Of a stretch of 33,577 nt of DNA, positions 3,069-22,288 are shown one piece after another. Position numbers and translations under genes: made by a program. Within the stretch, counting starts at the first letter, position 1. Each line of letters opens with the position of its first letter. This DNA comes from a virus. The stretch lies in the IMG/VR virus record IMGVR_UViG_3300046167_000511, positions 1 through 33,577 of that record; one strand, 5' to 3'. Under the pieces are notes generated by a model. It did not search any database and was not told the DNA's origin. It saw nothing but the letters and a program-made list of their open reading frames with translations.

Positions 3069-3308
3069 ATGGATAAAATACAAACGTTTATCAGTGAGTT
3101 CGAAATAGAATTTATTGATGATTTAAGGCGATTAGGTCTTAAAAAGAAAGATGTGTTGGAAAAGTTAGAAATGACCTTGCCCACATTGAATTCAAAGATT
3201 CAAAACCCTGATACATTAACTGTTAAGGATATAAAGAATCTTATTGAATTAGAATTTAATTTAGAAACTATAAAGAATGAGTACCGAGAAATCGAAAACA
3301 ACTCCTAA
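3069..3308 (+). CDS. Small HTH DNA-binding protein
   Basis: A 79-residue protein. Residues about 18-50 (DLRRLGLKKKDVLEKL, then TLPTLNSKI) look like a Cro/CI-type helix-turn-helix: a 'xxRRxGLKKxDVxExL' first helix pair, then 'TxPTLNSKI' as recognition helix. It overlaps the following ERF gene by 32 bases, which suggests co-expression with the recombination cassette. A regulator of the early genes is plausible, but there is no divergent partner gene and no clear operator. It could also be a small adaptor protein. Confidence 0.5.
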   Translation: MDKIQTFISEFEIEFIDDLRRLGLKKKDVLEKLEMTLPTLNSKIQNPDTLTVKDIKNLIELEFNLETIKNEYREIENNS

Positions 3309-3750
3309 AAAAGTTGTTAGTAAAAAGATGGATTTTCCAAATTGGAGTATCAATCTTAAAATATTTAGAATTCAAAATGAGCTTGAAGCTATCATTAAAG
3401 ATGCTAAAAACCCTTATTTTAAATCTAATTATGCAGACATCAATGCGATGTTAGAACAATTACAACCTTTATTAAATAAATACAAAGTTGCAATTGAACA
3501 ACCAATGAGAGATGGTAAAGTTTTTACTATTTTGACTTGTGTTGAAACAGGAGATTCTAAATCATCAAGTTTAGAATTACAACCTATGTCTGATCCACAA
3601 AAACTTGGAAGTGTTATTACATATTATAGAAGATATACATTACAAGGTTTGCTTGGAATTAGAACTAAAGATGATGATGCGAATATAGCATCAGGACAAA
3701 CTATTAACGAAAGCAGAGCAACAAGTTCTGTAACAATAAATGAAATTTAA
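3277..3750 (+). CDS. ERF-family single-strand annealing recombinase
   Basis: 157 residues. The core matches the ERF superfamily: NPYFKSNYADINAMLEQLQP, a central beta region, then SDPQKLGSVITYYRRYTLQG and LLGIRTKDDDAN. ERF proteins anneal complementary single strands during phage recombination and genome circularisation or repair. The N-terminus is Lys-rich and the C-terminus short, so the protein is on the small side of the family. Two genes on lies a RecE-like nuclease, which would supply the 3' single strands; the intervening gene encodes a protein with an SSB-type tip. The three form an obvious recombination module. Confidence 0.85.
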   Translation: MSTEKSKTTPKKVVSKKMDFPNWSINLKIFRIQNELEAIIKDAKNPYFKSNYADINAMLEQLQPLLNKYKVAIEQPMRDGKVFTILTCVETGDSKSSSLELQPMSDPQKLGSVITYYRRYTLQGLLGIRTKDDDANIASGQTINESRATSSVTINEI

Positions 3751-3755
3751 AAATT

Positions 3756-4022
3756 ATGGCAGAAGAATTTGTACGTAAAGATGGTACTGGGCAACTTAAT
3801 AAAAACTCATATAAAACCACTGACAATCACCCTGATTATAGAGGTGATGCTAAAATCGATGGTAAAAACAAAGAGTTAAGTGCTTGGGTTAAAACCAATG
3901 TTAAGGGCGAAAAATACTTATCATTAAGTATTCAAGAACCTTATAAAAAAGAAGAAGTCAAAACTCAATCTATACCTGTGAAAGCAGATCAAGATATGGC
4001 AGATGATGACTTACCATTCTAA
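3756..4022 (+). CDS. Small SSB-like protein with acidic DDDLPF tail
   Basis: An 88-residue protein. A short beta-type core (HPDYRGDAKIDGKNKELSAW, then VKGEKYLSLSIQEP) resembles small phage proteins of the DUF736/SSB-like type. A flexible linker and DDDLPF at the very C-terminus follow. That tip mimics the acidic SSB tail (DDDIPF) that recruits host repair and replication proteins. The start has the recurrent TAAAAATTATGG context. It lies between ERF and the RecE-like nuclease and is followed by a terminator. Likely role: binding single-stranded DNA or tethering SSB partners during recombination; binding itself is inferred. Confidence 0.55.
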   Translation: MAEEFVRKDGTGQLNKNSYKTTDNHPDYRGDAKIDGKNKELSAWVKTNVKGEKYLSLSIQEPYKKEEVKTQSIPVKADQDMADDDLPF

Positions 4023-4064: not shown

Positions 4065-4205
4065 ATGAATGAACATATGTTATATCACAATGTTTTAGCC
4101 AATTTCGATAAAAAGCTAAAAGAAGAAGAAGAAAAAAATAAACAATTAAAAGAAGAAAATAAAAAACTAAAAGATGAACTTAAAAAACTTAGAGATAAAA
4201 AATGA
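4065..4205 (+). CDS. Small coiled-coil protein
   Basis: A 46-residue reading frame starting 14 bases after the terminator T-run. After MNEHMLYHNVLANF it is almost entirely Lys/Glu/Asn/Leu in heptad-like spacing (LKEEEEKNKQLKEENKKL), predicting one long charged coiled coil. Its 3' end overlaps the RecE-like gene by 32 bases in another frame. No family recognised. The heptad pattern and position argue for a real gene, but low-complexity A-rich sequence can produce such frames by chance. Confidence 0.45.
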   Translation: MNEHMLYHNVLANFDKKLKEEEEKNKQLKEENKKLKDELKKLRDKK

Positions 4206-4971
4206 TTCAATACAAGATTATCATTCTCAAAAATCAATATCAGCAAGTAGCTTAAAGTATATAGCTGAAACATCTGTTTGGCATTACTTAAATAGAAAAC
4301 CCATAAAAGAAACAAAGTTTATGAAGATTGGCAATGCCGTTCATACAATTTGTTACGAGGGTATTGAAAAGTTTGGCGAACAATATTATGTTATGCCCAA
4401 AGTAGATAAGAGAACTAAAGAGGGTAAAGAACTTAATGAAAAGTTAATTAAATGGTCAAAGGGTAAAGTAATAATTGATGAACAAGAAGATCAAATAATA
4501 AGGGGTATATATGAAAACTTTAACAAGAGTAAAAAGGCACAAATGTATGCAAAAGGCAAAGTTGAGGTTTCCCATTATGGAACATATCAAGATATAGATG
4601 TAAGGGTTAGACCTGATTGTATGGGTGATGATTGGATAAGTGATATAAAAACTTGTCAAAACAGTAGTCCTAAAAGATTTCTTCGTGATATTTTAGACAG
4701 AAACTATCATATACAAGCATATTTTTATTCTTTGATGTTGGGTTATGATCCTAAAAAATTTAGATTTATAGCTTGTGAAACCAATCACCCTTATGGTGTA
4801 GAGGTGTATGGATTAGATGAAATTTTTATTGAAAATGCAAAAGAAGATTTTGAAAAAGCATTTACTTTTTGGAAGCTATATAAAGAGAAAAACATCATTA
4901 CTGGTTATCAATCTTCAAATTTTGATAAAGATGGTTCGATTATATTGAAAGGATTTAAAAGAAAAAAATAA
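4174..4971 (+). CDS. RecE-like PD-(D/E)XK exonuclease
   Basis: A 265-residue nuclease of the RecE C-terminal/DUF3799 type. Visible motifs: SISASSLKYI near the N-terminus (the 'S.S.lk.l..sP' signature), KIGNAVHTICYEG (GxAxH motif), VRVRPDCMGDDWISDIKT (D...DxK catalytic core) and HIQAYFYSLM (QxxxY motif). Such enzymes degrade duplex DNA 5' to 3' to expose a strand for an annealing protein, here the ERF protein upstream. The ATG at 4174 overlaps the coiled-coil gene. Length fits the isolated nuclease domain of phage RecE-like proteins. Confidence 0.85.
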   Translation: MNLKNLEIKNDSIQDYHSQKSISASSLKYIAETSVWHYLNRKPIKETKFMKIGNAVHTICYEGIEKFGEQYYVMPKVDKRTKEGKELNEKLIKWSKGKVIIDEQEDQIIRGIYENFNKSKKAQMYAKGKVEVSHYGTYQDIDVRVRPDCMGDDWISDIKTCQNSSPKRFLRDILDRNYHIQAYFYSLMLGYDPKKFRFIACETNHPYGVEVYGLDEIFIENAKEDFEKAFTFWKLYKEKNIITGYQSSNFDKDGSIILKGFKRKK

Positions 4972-4988
4972 TTATTAAATAATATAAA

Positions 4989-5663
4989 ATGAAAGATTTA
5001 AAAATTATCAAAGACATTGTTAATGAATATTTTCAAATTGACATTGCTAAAAAAACAAGAATGCAAGTTTATGTTGATGCAAGGGGTATTTATTATAGTT
5101 TATCAAGGGAATTAGTTCCAGGTGCAACCTATGAAAAATTAGGTCAATCTGTAAACTTAAACCACGCAACAGTAGTTAACGGAATGAAACAATTTAATTT
5201 TTTAATTGAATATAATAAATCAACCCAAAATAATTACTTAACTTTAAAAGCAATATGTTTAAAAAATATAGATAAGTTGGCAAATCCATTTGAAAAATAT
5301 TTAAGTAAAGAGGATAAAATGCAACATAGTGTAATGGAATATTTAGCATTCCAATATCCTAATGTTTATGCTATTCACGTTGCAAATGAAGGAAAAAGAA
5401 GTCCATTTGAAAGATTTAAGTTTAAATATTTAGGTGGAAAAGCAGGTGTTCCTGATATACTTATATTTAGAGGAGGTGGAACTGGTAGGTATGGTCTTGC
5501 TATTGAACTTAAGATTGGTTATAACAAGCCAACCGATAGCCAAAAAGATGCTTTAGAAAGATTAAGAAAAGAGAATTGGGAATGTCATTGGACAAATGAC
5601 TATGATAAAACTATTGAAATTATAGACCTTTATTTATCTAAACCCAATGATTCAGAGTTATAA
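4989..5663 (+). CDS. DnaA domain IV-like HTH fused to VRR-NUC nuclease
   Basis: 224 residues in two parts. Residues about 25-72 (ARGIYYSLSREL, then NLNHATVVNGMKQF) follow the pattern of DnaA domain IV: a basic helix, then the (D/N)HxTV recognition helix. Residues about 110-215 match VRR-NUC (PD-(D/E)XK superfamily): E134 in ANEGKRS, GVPDILIF with D156, and AIELKIG with E173 and K175, followed by SQKDALERLRKENW. VRR-NUC enzymes act on branched or flapped DNA, and phage members are often resolvase-like. The DnaA-like part would direct the nuclease to specific sites. No ATPase domain is present. Neighbours are recombination and replication genes. Both halves look intact; the fusion is the unusual point. 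Confidence 0.75.
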   Translation: MKDLKIIKDIVNEYFQIDIAKKTRMQVYVDARGIYYSLSRELVPGATYEKLGQSVNLNHATVVNGMKQFNFLIEYNKSTQNNYLTLKAICLKNIDKLANPFEKYLSKEDKMQHSVMEYLAFQYPNVYAIHVANEGKRSPFERFKFKYLGGKAGVPDILIFRGGGTGRYGLAIELKIGYNKPTDSQKDALERLRKENWECHWTNDYDKTIEIIDLYLSKPNDSEL

Positions 5664-8879: not shown

Positions 8880-9602
8880 ATGGAATTAAATAAAATATAT
8901 AATGAAGATTGTTTAGAAACAATGTCAAAAATGCCAAATGATTTTGTAGATTATTCACTTATATCACCACCATATAATGTTGGAAATAATCAATTAAATG
9001 GCGAGGGTAAAAAGTATGAATCTATTAATGATAAGATGACTAAAGATGAATATTTTGAAAATCAAAAACAAGTCATTGAAGAATTATTAAGAGTAACTAA
9101 ATATCATTTATTTTACAACATACAAATGCTTTCAAATAACAAACAAAGTGTTTTAAAACTTATGGGTTATTTTAACGATAAAATTAAAGAGATTATTATT
9201 TGGGATAAAAACTTTGGAGTACCTGCTATGGAACCTGGTGTTTTTAATAGTGCATACGAATACATAATCATATTTAGCAACGATCAACCAAGCAAAAGGA
9301 AGTTTTATGATGTAGATTTTAAAGGTACACAACCAAATGTGTTTCGTACAAAAAACAAACACTCTAATCCATTTGCTGATAAACATAAAGCAATATTTCC
9401 CCTTGATATACCAAGATATTTTATGCAAGTATTTGGAAAGGAAAATGATATTTGGTATGATTGTTATATGGGAACTGGCACAACTGCTGTTGCTGCAATA
9501 GAAGAAAAAAAGCAATTTATCGGATCTGAAATATTTGATGAATATTGCGACCTTGCAAACAATAGATTAAAACCATATTTAACACAAATTAAATTGTTTT
9601 AA
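8880..9602 (+). CDS. DNA methyltransferase, N4-cytosine/N6-adenine type
   Basis: 240 residues. Motif IV SPPY at residues 29-32 precedes motif I DCYMGTGTT at 194-202, the beta-class order of amino-methyltransferases (N6-A or N4-C). FIGSEIFDEYCDLANNRL gives the adjacent SAM-binding strand/helix. NEDCLETMSKMP at the start is typical of the DpnA/YhdJ-like family. No restriction endonuclease partner is seen, so it is an orphan enzyme that probably protects phage DNA from host restriction or marks DNA. The target sequence cannot be read from the gene. Confidence 0.9.
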   Translation: MELNKIYNEDCLETMSKMPNDFVDYSLISPPYNVGNNQLNGEGKKYESINDKMTKDEYFENQKQVIEELLRVTKYHLFYNIQMLSNNKQSVLKLMGYFNDKIKEIIIWDKNFGVPAMEPGVFNSAYEYIIIFSNDQPSKRKFYDVDFKGTQPNVFRTKNKHSNPFADKHKAIFPLDIPRYFMQVFGKENDIWYDCYMGTGTTAVAAIEEKKQFIGSEIFDEYCDLANNRLKPYLTQIKLF

Positions 9603-12269: not shown

Positions 12270-14480
12270 ATGGCATCAATATTATCAAGATTTCAGAAAC
12301 TCATTTCAAAGAATTTTCAACAAACTAATGCAGAGTTTAATAAAGCGATATACAACTATATTGGAAATAGTATTATTTGGAATGCTGAAAACGATAACAC
12401 TTACATTGAAAAAGGGTATCAATACAACACAACGATTTATTCTATTGTAAATCTTATAGCTAAAACTGCAGCGACAATTCCATTTCAGATATATGAGGTT
12501 AAAAATGAGAATGAGTTAAAGAGATACAAAGCAATGACAAGTGGTATCGCTAATGGTTCTGCATTACATAAAGCAGAGGTGTTAAGAAAACACGCACTTG
12601 AAGAAGTAGCAGATACTGAATTACACGAATTACTTTCAAGACCTAATCCTGCACAATCATACAATGCTTGGATTCAAGAAATAATTGCTTTTGGTAAACT
12701 AACTGGTAATCGTTACATCTATGGTTTAAAACCTGATACAGGTGCTAATCAAGGTAAATTCAAAGAATTATATGTATTGCCAAGTCAAAAGGTAGAAATT
12801 AATAGTGGTGGAATATTTGAACCAGTTAAATCATATTCATTAGACTATAATGGTCAATATAAGATGGAAGCTGAAGATATTTGCCATATAAAAGATTTTA
12901 ACCCTTATTATGATGGAACTGGTAGTCATTTATACGGAATGTCGCCACTTAAAGCAGGTTTAAGATCATTAGATACAAATAACGAAGCAATTACAACTGG
13001 TGCGAAGTATTTACAGAATCAAACTGCAAGAGGTGTACTTATGAGTGATGAGGGGGATATTAATGAAGTTCAAGCACAACAATTAAAAGAGAAGTTTAGA
13101 CAAAACTATCAAGGTTCTAATAGTGCAGGTGATATTGTAATAACACCAAAGAAATTATCTTGGATTAACTTTGGAATGTCAGCATCTGATCTTTCTCTAA
13201 TAGAACAATACAATGCAAGTATTAAGGACTTATGTAATATATATTCAGTACCTGCAGTTCTTTTAAACAACACGGAATCTTCTACTTATAACAATGTAAT
13301 TGAAGCTAAAAAGACATTGTATCAAAATGCAGTTATTCCTGAACTTAACAAAATCAAAGATGAGTTAAACAGATGGTTAGTTCCTGCTTATGGTGATAAA
13401 CTATACATTGACTTTGATTACACAAGTATTTCTGAAATGCAAGAGGAAATGGACAAAGTGGTTGGGCAAATGAGTCAGGCTTGGTGGCTAACTCCAAACG
13501 AGAAAAGACAAGCGATGAGTTATGGTGTTGAAGCCGACAACGAAAAACTTAACGATTACTATATTCCAATGAATCTTGTTCCATTACAAGATGAGGTTAT
13601 TAGTGAGGACTTTAAAAGTGTAAGAGTTAATTATGATGAACTACTTAATGTTAAGAGGGAAGTTCGCAGAGATGTTTACACAAGCGAAACAGAAGCAAGT
13701 GAAAGAGCAGAAGCGATTGGTTGTTCAGGTGTTCATTCACACGATGAGAATGGAAATAAAATTTATATGCCGTGTGCATCGCACGAAGATTATATCGCAA
13801 TCATTGGACAAGATGTTAAAGATGAATATATTGACAAACCAGTTAAACCTGGTAGTGCCGTAGAAACTGGTCTTAAAAACAAGGTAGAGGAACATAATGA
13901 GAAAGTTGGTGATGATAAATCAAAAAGAACTTCATATAGAACATTACAAACTGTATTCAATCGTGGTGTTGGTGCATATAGAAATAATCCATCATCGGTT
14001 AGACCAAGTGTTACAAGTGAAGATCAATGGGCTTATGCAAGAGTAAACTCATTTTTATATGTTCTTCGTAATGGTAAATTTAGAGGTGGCAAACACGACA
14101 CCGACCTTTTACCAAGTGGACACCCAATGTCAAGCAAGAAATCAATAACTAAAGCTGAAAGCTATACTAATTACCCACAAGGTGCTACTAACAATGCAAA
14201 AAGAATGTTGGAGTGGAGAGAAAAGTATGGTCGTGATGTTGTGAAAGGTGGAACTGAAGTTGGTTGGAAAAGAGCAAATCAATTAGCTAATAGAGAACCT
14301 TTATCACTTGATACTGTGAAAAGAATAAATAGCTTTTTAGCAAGACACGAGGATAATGCAAAAATATCTGAAGAATACAGAAACGAACCTTATAAAGACA
14401 AAGGTTATGTAGCTTATAATCTTTGGGGTGGTAAAGCAATGATTTCTTGGGCTAAAAGGATTTCTCAAAATGCTGACTAA
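12270..14480 (+). CDS. Portal protein with multidomain C-terminal extension
   Basis: 736 residues. Residues 1 to about 445 are an HK97-type portal: YQYNTTIYSIVNLIAKTAAT, LLSRPNPAQSYNAWIQ, GNRYIYGL, HIKDFNPYYDG, GMSPLKAG, and SVPAVLLNNTESSTYNNVIE. The remaining 290 residues hold three further conserved blocks: ASERAEAIGCSGVHSH ... YMPCASHEDYI (about 475-505), RGVGAYRNNPSSVRPSV plus QWAYARVNSFL (about 560-590), and GATNNAKRMLEWREKYG, VGWKRANQLA, TVKRINSFLARH (about 634-690, ending at GYVAYNLWGGKAMISWAKR). Such blocks are usually seen in phage head-maturation proteins or XkdF-like proteases, not in portals. The 3' end overlaps the MuF gene by 11 bases. Confidence 0.9.
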   Translation: MASILSRFQKLISKNFQQTNAEFNKAIYNYIGNSIIWNAENDNTYIEKGYQYNTTIYSIVNLIAKTAATIPFQIYEVKNENELKRYKAMTSGIANGSALHKAEVLRKHALEEVADTELHELLSRPNPAQSYNAWIQEIIAFGKLTGNRYIYGLKPDTGANQGKFKELYVLPSQKVEINSGGIFEPVKSYSLDYNGQYKMEAEDICHIKDFNPYYDGTGSHLYGMSPLKAGLRSLDTNNEAITTGAKYLQNQTARGVLMSDEGDINEVQAQQLKEKFRQNYQGSNSAGDIVITPKKLSWINFGMSASDLSLIEQYNASIKDLCNIYSVPAVLLNNTESSTYNNVIEAKKTLYQNAVIPELNKIKDELNRWLVPAYGDKLYIDFDYTSISEMQEEMDKVVGQMSQAWWLTPNEKRQAMSYGVEADNEKLNDYYIPMNLVPLQDEVISEDFKSVRVNYDELLNVKREVRRDVYTSETEASERAEAIGCSGVHSHDENGNKIYMPCASHEDYIAIIGQDVKDEYIDKPVKPGSAVETGLKNKVEEHNEKVGDDKSKRTSYRTLQTVFNRGVGAYRNNPSSVRPSVTSEDQWAYARVNSFLYVLRNGKFRGGKHDTDLLPSGHPMSSKKSITKAESYTNYPQGATNNAKRMLEWREKYGRDVVKGGTEVGWKRANQLANREPLSLDTVKRINSFLARHEDNAKISEEYRNEPYKDKGYVAYNLWGGKAMISWAKRISQNAD

Positions 14481-16220: not shown

Positions 16221-16922
16221 ATGGAAAATATAATATATAAGTCAAGCCCAATCGGTGAATTAGTTGATGCCGATGAAAAGAGTGGAATCGTAAAAGGATA
16301 TGGTTCTGTATTTAATAATGTTGATAGCGATGGTGATATAATTACACCAGGTGCATATACAAAAACGATTATGGAGAATGGAAGTCGTGTTAAATACTTA
16401 TATCAGCACAATATGGATCAACCATTAGGAAAAATGGTGAACTTATATGAAGATGATAAAGGATTGATGTTCGAAGCGAAAATACCAAAAACTCAACTTG
16501 GAACTGATGTATTAGAACTTATGAAAGCAGGGGTGATTACTGAAAACAGTGTAGGTATATTGCCACTTCAAAAGGAAGCAGGAATGGGTGATGGATATAA
16601 CAGAAAATTAACGGAAGTAAAACTTTATGAGATTTCTGCCGTTACACTTGCTGCAAATGATGAAGCAATGATATTAGATGTAAAAGGGAATGTAGATAAG
16701 GAGAAAGTATTGAAAAGATTTGATAAACTTGTGAAATTAATTCGCAAGGGTAACATTTCTGACAATATGGGTTATGCTATTGAAGCAGAACTCATCAAGC
16801 TAAAATCTATTTTTAACGATAGTGCCACTCTGCCAACTGAAATTGATGTTACAGAGCCGACAGAGATTAAAACTGATAATAGTGATATATATAATTATTT
16901 GTTTAATAAATTAAATTCGTAA
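16221..16922 (+). CDS. HK97-type prohead maturation protease
   Basis: 233 residues. GIVKGYGSVFNNVDSDGDII at the N-terminus, catalytic His in YLYQHNMDQPLGKM, catalytic Ser in VITENSVGILPL, and EVKLYEISAVTLAAND are the standard prohead protease (peptidase U35/S78) motifs. It cleaves the scaffold-like N-terminus of the capsid protein during maturation. The C-terminal 80 residues are Lys/Asp-rich and variable. It directly precedes the capsid gene (three-base gap), the usual HK97 order. Confidence 0.93.
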   Translation: MENIIYKSSPIGELVDADEKSGIVKGYGSVFNNVDSDGDIITPGAYTKTIMENGSRVKYLYQHNMDQPLGKMVNLYEDDKGLMFEAKIPKTQLGTDVLELMKAGVITENSVGILPLQKEAGMGDGYNRKLTEVKLYEISAVTLAANDEAMILDVKGNVDKEKVLKRFDKLVKLIRKGNISDNMGYAIEAELIKLKSIFNDSATLPTEIDVTEPTEIKTDNSDIYNYLFNKLNS

Positions 16923-16925
16923 AAA

Positions 16926-18131
16926 ATGAACGATGAAATCAAAAAAGAATTAGACCAAATCGGAGATTTAGTTGATTCTAAAATTGAAAAAGCATTCAAT
17001 TCGGCTCAAGATAATGCGAAAGGTGAGATTGAAGAATCACTTAAAAGTGAAATTTCAAACCTATCTAACGACTATCTTGCAAAGAATGATGAAATGCAAA
17101 AAAGAATGGACACTATCGAAATGGCAGCTAAAAAAAATGCTATCGAAAGTAAGCCAGTAAACTTTAAAGGTGCTTTAAAAGAAGCTATCGAAGGTGGTGC
17201 TATTGAAGGTCTTAAAAAAGGACAATCAAGAGCAGCTTCATTCGAAGTAAAAGCTGATATGACAACTGGTGCAGATTATACTGGTGAGGTTATCGCTGCA
17301 ACAAGAGTACCTGGTATAAAGTATGATCCTGCAAATGCAGTTCACATTAGATCAATCGTACCTGTTGGAACTACAAACTCTGACACAATAAGATATATTA
17401 AAGAATCTGCATATACACAAGGTGCTGCTGCTAAAGCAGAAGGAACTGCACTTGGACAAACTGACTTTAACTTAACTGCTTCTACTGCTAATGTAGAGTT
17501 AATTGGTACTTACTTAAGATTATCAAAGCAAATGCTTGATGATACTGAGCAATTAACTTCTTACATCTCGGCAAGAGTACCAAGCAAGTTAATGGCAGTT
17601 GAAGATGACCAATTATTAGGTGGTAATGGATCTGCACCAAATTTAGAAGGATTGAGAAATTCTGCTACTGTTTGGTCTAATTCTGCTTCAGGATTCGCTG
17701 ATGGTGTTATTGCAAACCCACAAAACATTGATGTATTAATTACTGCACTTAACCAAGTTGCAAAAGCTAATTATACTTCAGATGGGATTTTAATGCACCC
17801 AACAGATTTCCACAAGATTCTTGCACTAAAAGATGGTGACAGTAGATACTTAAAAGATCAAGTTTATCAAGGATTACAACCTACATTTATGGGAGTACCA
17901 TTTAGAATCTCAACTGCAATGGCAGAAGGAGAGTTTATCGTAGGTAATTTCTCACAAGCTGCTCAAATTTGGCAGAGAGAGAATGTAAGTGTTGAGTTCT
18001 TTGAGCAAGATTCTGACAATGTTCAAAAGAACTTTGTAACAGTAAGAGTTCAAGAAAGGTTAGCAATGACTACTTACTTACCAAATGCACTATGTAGAGG
18101 TTCATTCGCTACAGTGGTTGCAGCTCTATAA
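16926..18131 (+). CDS. HK97-fold major capsid protein
   Basis: 401 residues. The first 100 or so form a charged coiled-coil 'delta' scaffold region (MNDEIKKELDQIGDLVDSKI onward) likely removed by the upstream protease. The rest is the HK97 coat fold: VPGIKYDPANAVHIRSIVPV, TIRYIKESAYT, EGTALGQTDFNLT, LSKQMLDDTEQLTSYI, DDQLLGGNGSAPNLEGL, DGILMHPTDFHKI, and a C-terminal RVQERLAMTTYLPNALCRGS. It assembles the icosahedral shell. A strong terminator follows 21 bases downstream, so it closes the packaging/head transcript. Confidence 0.95.
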   Translation: MNDEIKKELDQIGDLVDSKIEKAFNSAQDNAKGEIEESLKSEISNLSNDYLAKNDEMQKRMDTIEMAAKKNAIESKPVNFKGALKEAIEGGAIEGLKKGQSRAASFEVKADMTTGADYTGEVIAATRVPGIKYDPANAVHIRSIVPVGTTNSDTIRYIKESAYTQGAAAKAEGTALGQTDFNLTASTANVELIGTYLRLSKQMLDDTEQLTSYISARVPSKLMAVEDDQLLGGNGSAPNLEGLRNSATVWSNSASGFADGVIANPQNIDVLITALNQVAKANYTSDGILMHPTDFHKILALKDGDSRYLKDQVYQGLQPTFMGVPFRISTAMAEGEFIVGNFSQAAQIWQRENVSVEFFEQDSDNVQKNFVTVRVQERLAMTTYLPNALCRGSFATVVAAL

Positions 18132-18152
18132 TTAATTAGAGTTTATATAATT

Positions 18153-18177
18153 AAAGGGGCTTCATGCCCCTTTTTTT
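18153..18177 (+). terminator. Strong terminator after capsid gene, probably bidirectional
   Basis: AAAGGGGC (18153-18160), loop TTCAT, GCCCCTTT (18166-18173), then T residues to 18177. The stem is flanked by A on the left, so the same hairpin can also serve the minus-strand gene that ends at 18176. Confidence 0.85.
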
Positions 18178-18316
18178 ATTTTACTTTCTTAATAAATCTT
18201 TCTGCTTGATCTTTAGTCCAAAATGTCCTGCCGAGTTCAGTACCTTCGAAATCATAATTTACAAGCCAAAGACCACCTTCTAATTGTAAAGGTTTGTATT
18301 TAATTGTCTTTTTCAT
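18176..18316 (-). CDS. Small minus-strand protein (46 aa)
   Basis: The only minus-strand gene I support. 46 residues starting MKKTIKYKPLQLEGGLWLVN and ending TKDQAERFIKKVK. The composition is that of a folded small protein (two beta strands then a basic helix), unlike the Phe/Ile/Ser-rich noise of antisense frames elsewhere; the open frame upstream of this Met (to 18541) is such noise and is excluded. It converges on the capsid gene and stops at the shared terminator. Its promoter would lie in the AT-rich 18317-18404, divergent from the next gene cluster. Function unknown. Confidence 0.55.
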   Translation of the reverse strand: MKKTIKYKPLQLEGGLWLVNYDFEGTELGRTFWTKDQAERFIKKVK

Positions 18317-18352
18317 ATTAACAATATATAAAAAAATATTAATAATGTAAAA

Positions 18353-18360
18353 TATATTTG
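18353..18360 (+). promoter_or_regulatory. -7 box in divergent intergenic region
   Basis: TATATTTG on the + strand lies 44 bases before the ATG at 18405, in the 88-base AT-rich gap between the minus-strand gene and the small + strand genes. No -33 element seen. Confidence 0.35.
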
Positions 18361-18404
18361 TGTATATGAAATAAATTGTTTTACTTTGAAGAAAATTAGA
18401 AAAT

Positions 18405-18512
18405 ATGAATAAAGAACAATTTAAAGAATTTCTAACATTTGTAAGTTTTATGGTTTTAGGCATTGGTATATTTTTTTGCTTATGGTCAATCTCTGAAATA
18501 TTTAGCATATAA
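18405..18512 (+). CDS. Single-span membrane peptide (35 aa)
   Basis: 35 residues: a short charged N-terminus (MNKEQFKEFL) followed by a hydrophobic segment (FMVLGIGIFFCLWSI) long enough to span a membrane. The stop overlaps the next start (TAATG). It may be a holin-like, superinfection-exclusion or host-takeover peptide; nothing distinguishes these. Its place in a chain of coupled small frames supports it. Confidence 0.5.
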   Translation: MNKEQFKEFLTFVSFMVLGIGIFFCLWSISEIFSI

Positions 18513-18667
18513 TGAAAGTAATATACAAAGCAACAAATCAAGATATTAATATGCCAGTTGATTTAAACTTGCAAAAAAGAATACTGAAATATTGTTGTTG
18601 GGGATTAGGATTGTTTACATTTTGGGCAACATTAGGAATTAACTTTTTATTTTGGTTAGTAAGATAA
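18512..18667 (+). CDS. Small membrane protein (51 aa)
   Basis: 51 residues. The N-terminal 25 are polar (MKVIYKATNQDINMPVDLNL); the rest is a hydrophobic segment rich in Trp, Phe and Gly (CCWGLGLFTFWATLGINFLF). Coupled by TAATG to genes on both sides. Likely inserted in the host membrane and possibly pairs with the preceding 35-residue peptide. No family recognised. Confidence 0.5.
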   Translation: MKVIYKATNQDINMPVDLNLQKRILKYCCWGLGLFTFWATLGINFLFWLVR

Positions 18668-18837
18668 TGTCAGTAAACAAAAAAATAGCACCAAAAATAA
18701 TGAAGATTATATCTAATCATTGGGATATAAAAAACATAACCCAAGATGATTATTTCAAGGTTTTGAGTTATGCTTATGGAATAGAAGATACAATAATTGA
18801 AAGTAAAAAGAAAAAAGATGGATCACTTAGAGATTGA
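18667..18837 (+). CDS. Hypothetical small protein (56 aa)
   Basis: 56 residues from the ATG overlapping the previous stop (TAATG); an in-frame TTG at 18652 is less likely. Helical, basic ends (MSVNKKIAPKIMKIISNHW; ESKKKKDGSLRD) and an acidic middle (ITQDDYFKVLSYAYGIED). The next gene begins 20 bases before its end. No function assigned. Confidence 0.5.
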   Translation: MSVNKKIAPKIMKIISNHWDIKNITQDDYFKVLSYAYGIEDTIIESKKKKDGSLRD

Positions 18838-18961
18838 AAGATACCAAAGAGAAGAAATAGAAACAAAGGAGTGTTTAAATTGTGGTGTTGAGTTTAAAAG
18901 CCATATTGATATTCCAAAACAGTATTGTTCTAATGTTTGTTATTATAGTACATTAGGATAA
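18818..18961 (+). CDS. Zinc-finger peptide (47 aa)
   Basis: 47 residues. Charged N-terminus (MDHLEIERYQREE), then C19-L-N-C22 and C37-S-N-V-C41 separated by 14 residues that include a His, a compact treble-clef/zinc-ribbon pattern (ECLNCGVEFKSH ... QYCSNVCYYS). The pattern resembles the C-x2-C ... YCS-x2-C 'CGxxF ... YCSxxC' fingers of small DNA-associated phage proteins. It overlaps the preceding gene by 20 bases and ends 32 bases before the terminator at 18994. Confidence 0.6.
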   Translation: MDHLEIERYQREEIETKECLNCGVEFKSHIDIPKQYCSNVCYYSTLG

Positions 18962-18993
18962 TTTTTTTTTCATATTAGTTAGTTTTATTAGTC

Positions 18994-19024
18994 AAGTGGT
19001 TAATTTCGGTTAGCCACTTTTTTT
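18994..19024 (+). terminator. Intrinsic terminator before the PD-(D/E)XK gene
   Basis: AAGTGG, a T-G wobble, TAA, loop TTTCGG, TTA and CCACTT form a ten-pair hairpin that runs into seven T residues (19018-19024). It ends the small-gene transcript. Confidence 0.8.
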
Positions 19025-19038
19025 GTAACTTTATTTTC

Positions 19039-19401
19039 GTGGATTCCAATGCAAAAGGTTGTATTGCTGAATATAAATTTGGTATTGAATGTCTTAAACG
19101 AGATATAAAAGTTTCTTACCCCCTAATCCATACTTCTTTTTATGATTGTGTGGCGGATACAGGAGAAAATATGTATCGTATTCAAATTAAATCTACAACT
19201 CAAGGATTTCAAAAAAACAGGAAAACTGTTCATATACAATGGAAACATAGTTACGAAAAAAAAGATGTAGATTATTTTGCAATTTGGGTAGAGAAGTATG
19301 AAGGGTTTTTTATTTTTAAAAATGATGGTAAAAGATTAGCGGTTAGATTAAGTCAAACAAATGCTTATTCAAAATTTTTTAATAACTTTGACTTCAAATA
19401 G
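19039..19401 (+). CDS. PD-(D/E)XK endonuclease (I-Ssp6803-like, PDDEXK_5 type)
   Basis: 120 residues starting at GTG. NAKGCIAEYKFGIECLKRD, then VSYPL ... YDCVADTG and YRIQIKST give the PD-(D/E)XK core with E11, D36 and Q49-x-K51. Gln in place of the usual Glu is also seen in I-Ssp6803-type homing enzymes. Next come VDYFAIWVEKYEGFFIF and RLAVRLS strands. An AACTTTA box sits five bases before the GTG. The gene stands alone between two terminators, within the head genes, which is typical of a mobile or accessory nuclease cassette. A role in host DNA breakdown is an alternative. Confidence 0.75.
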   Translation: MDSNAKGCIAEYKFGIECLKRDIKVSYPLIHTSFYDCVADTGENMYRIQIKSTTQGFQKNRKTVHIQWKHSYEKKDVDYFAIWVEKYEGFFIFKNDGKRLAVRLSQTNAYSKFFNNFDFK

Positions 19402-19430
19402 TTTTTTCTTTCTTTATTCTTTTTCAATCA

Positions 19431-19463
19431 AATGCACTGTAAACTTTATGGTGCATTTTTTTT
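19431..19463 (+). terminator. Intrinsic terminator after the nuclease gene
   Basis: AATGCAC (19431-19437) pairs with GTGCATT (19451-19457) across a 13-base loop and is followed by a T-run to 19463. Confidence 0.7.
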
Positions 19464-19464
19464 G

Positions 19465-19472
19465 TATTTTTG
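19465..19472 (+). promoter_or_regulatory. Bacteroidetes -7 box for connector/tail operon
   Basis: TATTTTTG directly after the terminator T-run, 16 bases before the ATG at 19489. It would restart transcription for the connector genes. No -33 TTG in the usual window. Confidence 0.5.
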
Positions 19473-19488
19473 TTTTAAATAATAAATT

Positions 19489-19602
19489 ATGTTAGAAGAT
19501 ATATTAGAGTTTTTAGGAATCATAGAAAGGGAAACTAAAAAGACAAAAGAAACAAAGGAATTAAAACAAGCATACAAGAAAAAAATCAAAAAAAATAAGT
19601 AA
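19489..19602 (+). CDS. Small basic helical protein (37 aa)
   Basis: 37 residues: MLEDILEFLGIIERETKKTK, then a run of Lys/Glu/Gln ending KKIKKNK. Probably a single charged helix. It has a promoter box in front and is coupled to the connector gene by TAATG, so it may serve mainly as a leader frame for that gene or be a minor virion/assembly peptide. Confidence 0.5.
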   Translation: MLEDILEFLGIIERETKKTKETKELKQAYKKKIKKNK

Positions 19603-20147
19603 TGAAATATTATAGTAATCCTTTAAATCGCTTTCATACACAAATCAAGATAACTGCTACGACAGGATCAGAGATAATTAACACGGCAACGGCTAAATCA
19701 TATTTAAGGGTTGATACAAGTGCTGATGATACCTTGATTGGTCAAATGATTACACAAGCCAGGATTATAATTGAAAATTACATTACTAAAGATATAGTGG
19801 CTAAAACAAGGAAATTATATTTAGCAAATGTTGATGAAAGGTTTGTTTTGCCATTTTCACCAATAGCTTCTGTACAATCAATAACTGTAGATGGAACTGC
19901 TACAACTGACTATACCACTTATGGTTTAGATGATACAATTATTGAATTGGGGAGTTTGCCATCAAAAGAGGTTATTGTAAGCTATACAACGGCAGGAATG
20001 AATGATAGTTTTTTAATAGAAGCAAATCTTCAGCTTGTTTCAACACTTTATGACAATAGAACTGATTTTGTAATTGGTCAAAATGTTACTGATCTTCCTA
20101 CAAGTGTTAAAGAAATATTAAGTGGTTATAAAACAATGTTTATATAA
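19602..20147 (+). CDS. Head-tail connector (HK97 gp6-like adaptor)
   Basis: 181 residues. TATAKSYLRVDTSADDTLIG and MITQARIIIENYITKDIVAK, a central beta region (VLPFSPIASVQSITVDG), and a C-terminal FLIEANLQLVSTLYDNR are the features of gp6-type adaptors. These form the ring below the portal. Start by TAATG; followed by stopper, gp10-like and tail-terminator genes in canonical order. Confidence 0.85.
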   Translation: MKYYSNPLNRFHTQIKITATTGSEIINTATAKSYLRVDTSADDTLIGQMITQARIIIENYITKDIVAKTRKLYLANVDERFVLPFSPIASVQSITVDGTATTDYTTYGLDDTIIELGSLPSKEVIVSYTTAGMNDSFLIEANLQLVSTLYDNRTDFVIGQNVTDLPTSVKEILSGYKTMFI

Positions 20148-20473
20148 TGAATGCAGGTAAATTAGATAAAAGAGTTTTAGTTAAAAGACAATCTAAATCT
20201 GTTGATGGTTTTGGTGGGTTTACATCTACTCTTGGAACTCAAACAACCATTTGGGCAATGGTTAATTATACTGGTGGTGATATTACCACAAAGAATGGGA
20301 AAAGAGATAGGAATTTAGTTATTGAATTAACTGTTAGGAAAAAAACTGCTGATGATATAAATACGACAGATCTGTTAGAAATTGAAAATGAAAGTGGACA
20401 ATTTCAAATAAACAATATGTTTAATAGCAATTATAAATATTACACAACAATAACGGCAACAAAAAGGGAATAA
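20147..20473 (+). CDS. Head-tail stopper (SPP1 gp16/HK97 gp7-like)
   Basis: 108 residues. GKLDKRVLVKRQSKSVDGFG, then TIWAMVNYTGGDI and ELTVRKKTADDI match the head-tail joining protein family, a small beta barrel that closes the head after packaging. Coupled by TAATG to genes on both sides. Confidence 0.85.
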   Translation: MNAGKLDKRVLVKRQSKSVDGFGGFTSTLGTQTTIWAMVNYTGGDITTKNGKRDRNLVIELTVRKKTADDINTTDLLEIENESGQFQINNMFNSNYKYYTTITATKRE

Positions 20474-20850
20474 TGGCAGAAAAAGACATTCAAATAGTGT
20501 TAAATAAATCTGATGCAAGAAAGGTTGAGCAGCTTTTTAACAAATTATCTTCATTAAGTAATAAAGGAGTTGATATGATAATAGCTAAAAGGGCATCGTT
20601 TATTGTTAGAGATATGAAAGGAGATGCACCAGTTAAAACAGGTAATCTTATGAATAATATAGTTTACAACCATCAAAATTTATCAATAGAATCTAAAGCA
20701 CCATACAGTGCTGCAGTTGAAGAAATGACAAGTTCTAAAGCGAAAGGAAGTGTTAAGGGTGCATATCAATTTTTCTACAAGAATATTAACAAAGGTTTGG
20801 TTAAATTAAAATTAGATTTAAACAATGCAATTAAAAGAAGTTTAAGATGA
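20473..20850 (+). CDS. HK97 gp10-like tail component
   Basis: 125 residues. A long N-terminal helix, RDMKGDAPVKTGNLMNNIVY and ESKAPYSAAVEE are the signature of the HK97 gp10 family ('aPv.TG.L..si...........pYA..vE'). The family acts in head-tail joining or tail assembly. Position between stopper and tail terminator agrees. The stop overlaps the next start by ATGA. Confidence 0.87.
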   Translation: MAEKDIQIVLNKSDARKVEQLFNKLSSLSNKGVDMIIAKRASFIVRDMKGDAPVKTGNLMNNIVYNHQNLSIESKAPYSAAVEEMTSSKAKGSVKGAYQFFYKNINKGLVKLKLDLNNAIKRSLR

Positions 20851-21284
20851 AAGAACCAATACGATTTATAAGACAAAAGATATTTACACTCTTAAATGGT
20901 AATGTAAGTTATGGTGGTGCAAATGTACCTGTATATAATCGTGTTCCATCTACACAAAGTGAACCATATATAATTGTGTATTCTGCAGATACTGCTCAAA
21001 CAAATCAAAATCAAAGTGACTTCATAGTTGAATGTATTACAAGAATCGAAGTAGTTACGGCTTTCTTTTCTGATGATGGCGGAGAACTACAAGTAAATGA
21101 TATTGTAGAATCAATTTTAGAGTTAATTAAAACATCTACAACTGATTACTTTGACCTTACATCTAACAACTTTAATGTCTTTACAAGTAACATTAATGGG
21201 GTTGCTTATAGTGAAGAAAATGATGATGAAAAAACTTATTTTAGAGCAATCATTGATATTGCGAATAGAGTTCAACAAAATTAA
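20847..21284 (+). CDS. Tail terminator/completion protein (DUF3168-like)
   Basis: 145 residues. IRQKIFTLLNGNVSYGGANV, then VPSTQSEPYIIVYSADTA, CITRIEVVTAFFSDDGG and YFRAIIDIANRVQQN follow the layout of tail completion proteins: an N-terminal helix, 'vP....PYI.i', a central strand pair and a final strand. It would cap the tail tube at the head side. It ends six bases before the endolysin gene. Confidence 0.75.
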   Translation: MKEPIRFIRQKIFTLLNGNVSYGGANVPVYNRVPSTQSEPYIIVYSADTAQTNQNQSDFIVECITRIEVVTAFFSDDGGELQVNDIVESILELIKTSTTDYFDLTSNNFNVFTSNINGVAYSEENDDEKTYFRAIIDIANRVQQN

Positions 21285-21289
21285 AAATT

Positions 21290-21790
21290 ATGGCAAAATC
21301 TAAAAAAGAAAATTTTAGTAAACATATATCTTGGAAAGAAGCATTTGGTTCTGCAACTGCAAAAAAACTTAAAATAAAAAACACACCTAACGAAGAACAA
21401 TTAGCCAATATGAAAACATTAGCTGATAACTTATTCGAACCATTAAGAGAAATAGTAGGTGAACCAATCATTGTAAATAGCTTTTTTAGATCAAAGGAAT
21501 TAAATAATGCTATTTCAGGTGCTGCAACTACATCTCAACATATAGATGGTTGTGCCATAGATTTAGATGCCACAGGTGTTACAAATTGCGAATTATTTTA
21601 CATAATTAAAAATGAATTAGATTTTGACAAACTTATTTGGGAATTAGGTGATGATAATAACCCTGCTTGGATTCACGTTTCTTATGTAGAGGGGAAAAAT
21701 AGAAAACTTTGCTATCAAGCTAAAAGAAAAGAGGGTAAAGGTTATTCTACATATCATTCTTTTAATTTAGATAAAATTCAAGATGCTTAA
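21290..21790 (+). CDS. Endolysin, M15-type peptidase
   Basis: 166 residues. IIVNSFFRSKELNNAISGAA, then TTSQHIDGCAIDLDAT (SxHxxGxAxD, first zinc His and Asp) and PAWIHVSYVEG (second zinc His) define a peptidase M15_3 domain. It cleaves cell-wall peptide stems, and its role is host lysis. No signal peptide, so it needs the holin encoded next, whose start overlaps its end by eight bases. The start has the TAAAAATTATGG context. Its location between tail-terminator and fibre genes is unusual but seen in marine phages. Confidence 0.88.
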   Translation: MAKSKKENFSKHISWKEAFGSATAKKLKIKNTPNEEQLANMKTLADNLFEPLREIVGEPIIVNSFFRSKELNNAISGAATTSQHIDGCAIDLDATGVTNCELFYIIKNELDFDKLIWELGDDNNPAWIHVSYVEGKNRKLCYQAKRKEGKGYSTYHSFNLDKIQDA

Positions 21791-22157
21791 ATTATTAAAA
21801 AGATTATTAGGTTTTTCAGATAAAAATGACATTGGTGGTCTTGGTCTTGAAATAAGGGAACTTATAAAAGGGAAAGAGATTGATCCACAAAAGTTAATTG
21901 AATTACAAGCACAAATTAACGAACAAGAAGCCAAGCACAGAACAATTTTTGTTGCAGGTTGGCGACCTTTTATCGGTTGGGTTTGTGGATTTGCACTTGC
22001 ATATAATTTTGTACTAAGAGATTTGCTTGTATGGTATGTTGGAGTTGAATCAGCACCACCTGCCCTGCAAATGGAACATTTAATGACTGTTTTAATCGGT
22101 ATGCTTGGACTTGGTGGAATGAGGACTTTTGAAAAGTTTAACAACAAATCAAACTAA
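21783..22157 (+). CDS. Holin, GTA/3TM type
   Basis: 124 residues. A cytoplasmic amphipathic region (LKRLLGFSDKNDIGGLGLEI) and a coiled stretch precede AGWRPFIGWVCGFALAYNFV, a second hydrophobic part with DLLVWYVGV, and HLMTVLIGMLGLGGMRTFEK. The 'WRP..GW..g.a.......TvlIGmLGlgg.RT.EK' pattern is that of the GTA_holin_3TM family. It would permeabilise the inner membrane for the M15 endolysin. Coupled by TAATG to the next small gene. Confidence 0.85.
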   Translation: MLKLLKRLLGFSDKNDIGGLGLEIRELIKGKEIDPQKLIELQAQINEQEAKHRTIFVAGWRPFIGWVCGFALAYNFVLRDLLVWYVGVESAPPALQMEHLMTVLIGMLGLGGMRTFEKFNNKSN

Positions 22158-22288
22158 TGGCACAAAAAGTATTCATTTCTTATGTTGAAAAACCAAAGAA
22201 AAAAAGACCTGGTCGCCATAGTAAAAATGCAAGTAAAGGTCAATCAGGTTACAAAAAAAAATATCGTGGACAAGGTCGAAACCATTAA
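22157..22288 (+). CDS. Small basic conserved phage protein (43 aa)
   Basis: 43 residues, strongly basic: MAQKVFISYVEKPKKKRPGR, then HSKNASKGQSGYKKKYRGQG and a short end. The RPGRH-K/S ... YKK(K)Y-GQGR pattern recurs in small proteins of marine podo-, sipho- and myoviruses, so I regard it as a real conserved gene. It may bind nucleic acid or a virion surface; function unknown. Coupled to the holin gene by TAATG. Confidence 0.6.
   Translation: MAQKVFISYVEKPKKKRPGRHSKNASKGQSGYKKKYRGQGRNH

Follow-up and report, generated by a model that had tools for sequence, protein, structure and literature searches.

What is a nuclease gene doing between the capsid and connector genes of a phage head module? 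The question is raised by the IMG/VR virus record IMGVR_UViG_3300046167_000511, analyzed over its whole length of 33,577 bases (hereafter, the window), which carries an HK97-type head module. Between the end of the major capsid protein (MCP) gene at position 18131 (16926 to 18131, + strand; HK97 fold, PF05065 at 4.8e-37, phrog_10) and the start of the next unit at 19489 lies an interval that holds several small open reading frames (ORFs) and a 120-residue PD-(D/E)XK nuclease of the PDDEXK_5/I-Ssp6803I family (19039 to 19401, +; GTG start). Downstream follow a 37-residue lysine-rich ORF (19489 to 19602, +), whose stop overlaps the connector start (TAATG), and the head-tail connector gene itself (19602 to 20147, +; PF05135 at 3.4e-7, phrog_442). 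The nuclease therefore sits between two conserved genes, MCP and connector. An earlier note on this DNA had read the interval as an insulated moron region for host takeover or anti-defense. We favor a different answer: the gene probably encodes a free-standing, putative PD-(D/E)XK homing-type endonuclease, lodged between capsid and connector and still exchanging alleles.

The nuclease matched PF11645 (PDDEXK_5) with an E value of 1.3e-12 and 48.3 bits, above the curated cut-off of 26.1, and PHROG 5018 was matched by 21/21 family members, 19 of which also matched the PADLOC "HEase" model. A profile of 21 divergent members searched against PDB had I-Ssp6803I (2ost) as its sole sequence match (E 4.4e-9); with the window nuclease as a single query, the E value was only 0.052. 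The AlphaFold2 model (mean predicted local distance difference test score, 90) retrieved 2ost at all of Foldseek ranks 1 to 4 (best 3.6e-8), and structural comparison with 2ost gave a Z score of 15.7 and a root mean square deviation of 2.1 over 118 residues. The second structural rank was taken by an archaeal Hjc Holliday-junction resolvase (Z 12.0), and the list beyond these two includes SPARDA nucleases, NhoI, and EcoRV. Residues E11, D36, Q49, and K51 are invariant in 95/95 distinct proteins, in 48/48 from a second set of relatives, and in 5/5 from a second phage lineage (both described below); judging from the motif and the I-Ssp6803I alignment, in which D36 and QxK coincide, they presumably form the catalytic set. 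The median ratio of nonsynonymous to synonymous substitution rates was 0.15 for the nuclease, 0.07 for the connector, 0.09 for the MCP, and 0.14 for a neck gene farther downstream. Taken together, family, predicted fold, and the population pattern presented below point to a putative homing-type enzyme.

I-Ssp6803I, the same fold and the only sequence relative in PDB, is somewhat larger (151 versus 120 residues). Its cyanobacterial gene resides within a group I intron that interrupts a tRNA-fMet gene (PMC1995217), whereas the window nuclease is free-standing and phage-borne; no Rfam match to an intron or structured RNA was found in the window, and there is no sign there of a group I intron.

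Relatives of the locus were fetched by nuclease, MCP, and connector searches, the MCP matches being the best 80 of 273. The nuclease was present in 72/72 distinct regions reaching from MCP to connector. Since this first set had partly been fetched by the nuclease itself, the presence test was repeated with a divergent MCP alignment as the query (best 80 of at least 550 matches), and again all 55 distinct spanning regions contained the gene; two contigs (L327 and L335) are shared with the first set. One contig, L322, continues for 1,907 bases after the MCP and shows neither nuclease nor connector before its end, which decides nothing on absence because the spacing reaches 2.6 kb in other loci. 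A moron would be both insulated and absent from close relatives; the nuclease is insulated and never absent, and its presence in all spanning regions examined argues that it is no accessory moron in the window's lineage.

The small ORFs are another matter. All genes named in the earlier note are indeed in place: a 46-residue ORF on the minus strand (18176 to 18316), two hydrophobic membrane peptides of 35 residues (18405 to 18512, +) and 51 residues (18512 to 18667, +), a 56-residue protein (18667 to 18837, +), and a 47-residue zinc-knuckle peptide with CxxC/CxxxC (18818 to 18961, +; phrog_2308 at 8.4e-6 and phrog_1271, HNH endonuclease, at 8.1e-4), besides the nuclease. The minus-strand ORF was found in only 5/72 distinct regions. 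With clustering at an E value of 1e-4, a setting under which very small peptides escape once they have diverged, the clusters of the 56-, 51-, 35-, and 47-residue products were represented in 54, 37, 23, and 8 of 92 loci, respectively; differently clustered peptides at the locus included another membrane peptide (40/92) and another zinc-knuckle peptide (23/92). The 37-residue ORF 3′ of the nuclease, by comparison, has its cluster in 84/92 loci. Conservation of the gene set at this site in all relatives, which the earlier note had named as evidence against its reading, hence holds for the nuclease and nearly so for the 37-residue ORF; the other small genes are not conserved. They form a separate unit whose content differs from one relative to the next, as expected of accessory genes.

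Transcription signals divide the interval along the same lines. A scan of positions 16500 to 21500 for terminator-like hairpins returned four sites, one of them a shifted version of the first, versus 1.4 in shuffled sequences. The three hairpins, all on the + strand, lie after the MCP (18153 to 18173), just 5′ of the nuclease (18994 to 19019), and 3′ of it (19430 to 19458); the four plus-strand small ORFs end at the second and the nuclease at the third. Among 92 relatives they recur in 91, 77, and 91 (shuffles, 0.5, 1.4, and 0.9), with 49, 43, and 52 different sequences, respectively. Such recurrence with many different sequences indicates that the hairpins are kept while the letters change. 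The terminators on both sides of the nuclease claimed in the earlier note are thereby borne out as terminator-like hairpins, while the first hairpin, described there as bidirectional, satisfied the terminator rule on the + strand only.

A new promoter ahead of the connector had also been proposed. Sigma-70-like promoters occurred at chance level (28 found versus 27.5 expected); a promoter-like −7 box of the Bacteroidota type does stand at 19465 to 19472 (+; TATTTTTG), in front of the connector unit. TAnnTTTG is the −7 box consensus of Bacteroidota-type promoters. A near match, TAACTTTA (19026 to 19033, +), ends 5 nucleotides 5′ of the nuclease start, and by the same consensus the small-ORF unit may have its −7 box in TATATTTG (18353 to 18360, +). 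Across the whole window the TAnnTTTG motif is not enriched (43 found versus 62 expected). At specific places the related TAnnTTTR is commoner than in shuffles: it lies within 40 nucleotides 5′ of the nuclease start in 79/92 relatives (shuffle mean 14.4, largest 23), at a distance of 4 to 5 nucleotides in 63 of those 79, and between nuclease and connector in 84/88 (mean 35, largest 48). Control genes gave 2/91 for the MCP and 6/92 for the connector (shuffle largest 6), and the gene 3′ of the connector gave 27/89, above chance (mean 14.3, largest 24). We infer that the TAACTTTA box would be the nuclease's own promoter, yielding a near-leaderless mRNA, and that the gene would thus sit in its own promoter-gene-terminator unit. 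With hairpins and promoter-like boxes between the gene sets, the interval is at least three units, i.e., the small ORFs, the nuclease, and the 37-residue ORF plus connector, and not one cassette. The earlier note was correct on insulated transcription, both kinds of signal recurring in relatives.

Evidence for mobility comes from allele exchange. Loci L010 and L111 are 100% identical in the protease, 99% in the MCP, and 100% in the connector, and only 55% in the nuclease. Their DNA alignment runs at 98% upstream, falls to about 67% within the nuclease ORF, recovers to 97% over the final 33 bases of that ORF, and reaches 100% downstream, placing the breakpoints at the ends of the nuclease ORF. 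L049 and L058 show the same swap pattern with another allele pair (nuclease, 63%). In a systematic scan for swaps, i.e., pairs with both 200-base flanks at least 85% alike and the ORF at most 75% alike, the nuclease scored in 23/125 pairs from five backgrounds (by our own grouping), versus none for the protease (0/134), MCP (0/98), connector (0/249), the next gene (0/127), and g4 (0/169). The reverse scan for moves (ORF at least 92% alike, both 200-base flanks below 75%) gave 20/106 for the nuclease, 3/322 for the protease, and zero in five other genes; for the neck gene (20473 to 20850; phrog_5, neck or tail-completion) the count was 0/77. Because noncoding flanks diverge fast, both scans were repeated with coding genes as the neighbors, whereupon the nuclease had moved in 8/55 pairs and been swapped in 11/63, the connector showed neither pattern, and the neck gene had moved in 0/55 and been swapped in 15/65.

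Phylogenies agree with this picture. The nuclease tree is in strongly supported conflict with the tree of the connector plus next gene, and four approximately unbiased (AU) tests of clades of one tree in the data of the other, the clades having been picked after the trees were seen, all ended in rejection (p 1.9e-56 to 3.3e-5). For example, the nuclease clade L171+L175+L179 is incompatible with the backbone data (p-AU 1.9e-56), as is the backbone pair L171+L159 with the nuclease data (p-AU 2.9e-6). The nuclease accordingly has a history independent of its flanks, a result that is weaker with coding neighbors.

Further members of the family lie elsewhere. A second phage lineage is represented by four loci that the nuclease alignment retrieved (L172, L177, L178, and L180). 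There, the nuclease is flanked on one side by a 43-residue RG-rich ORF, which itself comes after a holin-like gene, and on the other by a gene for an M15 peptidase. A search for the PF05065 capsid found none in the three long records of this lineage and none in a group of 15 that adds to these or overlaps with them. The M15 peptidase fetched 43 loci, 39 of them with at least 500 bases upstream, and only 6 of these 39 have the nuclease; the copy in L229 is cut by the contig end. Among 15 long second-lineage records, it is present in the two known carriers and nowhere in the other 13. Found in every spanning region of the window's lineage, the gene is optional here. In nuclease-free loci, e.g., L257, a purine-rich sequence comes directly after the RG-rich ORF; in carriers, it follows the nuclease stop. 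The second-lineage nuclease is a one-gene insertion with base-precise empty sites. These nucleases form one clade (100/99) among the capsid-locus ones, in a midpoint-rooted tree from a short alignment in which the bootstrap had not settled. More distant family members occur in the tRNA clusters of the T5-like phages Pylo (PF11645 at 2.2e-18) and My1 and directly after a DNA polymerase-like ORF (named by eye) of a gut phage.

Besides the nuclease, the gap between the RG-rich ORF and the M15 peptidase gene holds a Mom gene in L172 and two small ORFs in L180. The former, a Mom-family DNA modification gene (L172:2588-3256), comes directly after the nuclease, and other small basic ORFs were seen at the junction in L234, L258, and L180, which suggests that it is a general insertion site for small genes. 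The window has a 43-residue RG-rich ORF of its own (22157 to 22288, +; phrog_17967 at 1.6e-4), followed by no nuclease; by eye, it resembles the second-lineage ORF that directly precedes the nuclease.

How might such a gene spread? In a mixed infection, the nuclease would cut the DNA of a related phage that carries a different allele or none, and the ERF/exonuclease system would repair the break from the nuclease-bearing genome, with the rival allele being replaced. The phage has its own recombination genes, encoding an ERF annealing protein (3277 to 3750, +), an SSB-like protein (3756 to 4022, +), and an exonuclease VIII-like protein (4174 to 4971, +), supplying what donor-templated repair of the cut needs. 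Intronless homing of the kind described for T4 (PMC2988022) would account for the replacement. Alternatively, the cut may simply disable the rival phage. Swapped pairs hardly differ in their flanks, so the site that is protected or cut would be expected within the exchanged ORF itself, unless both genomes lack it.

That the nuclease is retained and its putative catalytic residues stay intact suggests that carriers gain something more than selfish spread; precedents for such a gain are interference competition (PMC11620839) and marker exclusion (PMC12724721). A tentative extension, which we regard as possible though rather doubtful, is that the locus determines compatibility: the clade would have several nuclease alleles hostile to one another, one in each member, with the allele determining what is spared, and co-infecting relatives that have a different allele would be cut and converted. 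As the swapped segment ends at the ORF, the target or the immunity would then reside in the rival nuclease gene or be lost with it. If true, a homing enzyme fixed at the capsid junction would have become a weapon of phage against phage.

Several observations weigh against a mobile homing-type gene. Free-standing homing genes are usually optional (PMC6083498), and not one spanning relative in the window's lineage is without the nuclease. Resolvases and restriction enzymes have folds that are similar as well, and in the I-Ssp6803I chain that was solved the family's E11 is replaced by Q, which may not be the native residue. The second-lineage nuclease has no flanking hairpins. As to exchange, L010 and L111 also differ by about 190 bases in the small-ORF unit, the neck gene swaps in 28/202 pairs, and a looser cut (ORF at most 85% alike) brings in the MCP (15/98) and the connector (50/249) next to the nuclease (33/125). 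The contrast shrinks when coding neighbors are used: the protease had moved in 37/149 pairs (swapped, 0/45) and the MCP in 14/82 (swapped, 0/60), and with the nuclease as one neighbor the MCP displayed both patterns (moved, 11/82; swapped, 2/46). The head region thus recombines in general; within it, moves and swaps stand out best in the nuclease, and no smaller unit displays both with breakpoints seen at its own ends. As a separate observation, MCP versions only about 54% identical are found in similar backgrounds, e.g., in L010 and L072 (protease, 97%; connector, 93%).

Three other explanations were weighed. Chief among these is that the nuclease is a core packaging or recombination enzyme, an essential Hjc-like resolvase that debranches DNA before packaging, its alleles shuffled by homologous recombination via the conserved hairpins. 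The constant place in the head module, the purifying selection, the second structural rank of Hjc, and the recombination of MCP and neck gene would all suit such a role. Yet the sequence profile finds I-Ssp6803I only, family members are also found within tRNA clusters and next to a polymerase-like ORF, and the role is further weakened by the optional presence of the gene in the second lineage and by a VRR-NUC-like gene, itself a weak match to a resolvase, that the window's recombination region already has (4989 to 5663; PF08774 at 6.8e-5, just below the cut-off; phrog_5702 at 3.9e-9). We consider it unlikely. Less likely again is a weapon diversified in specificity that is not a homing gene at all, one cutting co-infecting phages or satellites, with the allele swaps reflecting selection for new specificity. 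The retention of intact putative catalytic residues together with allele turnover speaks for it, as do precedents such as gp210 (PMC11620839), Skunavirus exclusion (PMC12724721), and origin-directed nucleases (PMC10448857); no target was found, however, and the idea overlaps with homing, differing only in who benefits.

A moron cassette for host takeover or anti-defense, finally, appears very improbable. Its insulated units and the differences in small ORFs among relatives are real, but none of the relatives shown to span the site lacks the nuclease, and its own PADLOC match is "HEase." None of the six small ORFs matched a PADLOC model at an E value of 0.1, and no defense family was recognized among them in Pfam, PHROGs, or PADLOC, libraries that contain few counter-defense models; PADLOC covers defense and not counter-defense families, making the null result there weak evidence. 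Nothing found points to the functions that the earlier note had proposed.

A homing-type nuclease at this site would have parallels in known systems. Like the seg and mob genes of T4, it is a separate gene between conserved genes, and segB, mobE, and seg43(25) similarly have an RNA hairpin 5′ of the start codon (PMC2988022); those enzymes, however, are of the GIY-YIG or HNH type with proven cleavage and biased inheritance. Phage homing genes have been reported near terminase, capsid, reductase, and polymerase genes, and in ICP1 and other phages the content of homing endonuclease genes near capsid or terminase shifts while the surroundings remain nearly unchanged (PMC10448857). The families in that survey are HNH and T5orf172; a search of its text for PDDEXK and I-Ssp6803I returned none. 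For action against co-infecting phages, PhiPA3 gp210 and the Skunavirus HNH endonucleases may serve as models (PMC11620839 and PMC12724721); these are HNH enzymes tested in culture.

PD-(D/E)XK homing enzymes have been placed by a review in protist and cyanobacterial genomes (PMC3943268), and the present family would extend homing-type enzymes of this class to free-standing phage genes. One expects homing genes to be gained and lost; in this broad phage clade, the gene occupies a fixed site in every spanning member examined, retains its putative catalytic residues, and is swapped allele for allele in near-identical genomes, while a related nuclease clade occurs sporadically in another phage lineage, where the empty sites are clean. 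How a selfish gene may become a useful weapon or a core gene can thus be tested directly. Searches of the open-license PubMed Central literature returned no paper combining flavobacterial phage, capsid, and free-standing homing endonuclease, and among the matches listed for PDDEXK, homing endonuclease, and phage (7 of 8), none concerned such a gene, judging by the title and the opening of the abstract, which is no proof of novelty.

A few observations concern the wider distribution and the rest of the window. Six records of isolated phages gave weak nuclease matches at an E value of 0.01. A genome collection yielded one nuclease relative, on a contig binned as a Woesearchaeota metagenome-assembled genome and adjoined by phage head genes, probably a misbinned phage. 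In G031, MCP, nuclease, and connector are repeated near the contig start at 91 to 97% DNA identity; considered as a second insertion, this was read instead as an assembly overlap of two strains. When the block 5′ of the nuclease start was compared with the entire window, no second copy turned up, only the block itself. The host is probably a member of the Bacteroidota, judging from the best-ranked terminase matches, to Bacteroides and Phocaeicola phages (about 38%); by record number, Streptococcus and Staphylococcus phages were the most numerous.

An N6/N4 DNA methyltransferase gene (8880 to 9602; PF01555), the one methyltransferase tested, was considered as the partner of the nuclease in a restriction-modification pair and rejected, as it is not kept alongside: weak matches (best 33%, partial) were found in 5/20 related records, all 20 of which hold the nuclease region. 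The portal ORF (12270 to 14480) has, after the portal domain, a C-terminal extension matching DUF3721 and DUF5824.

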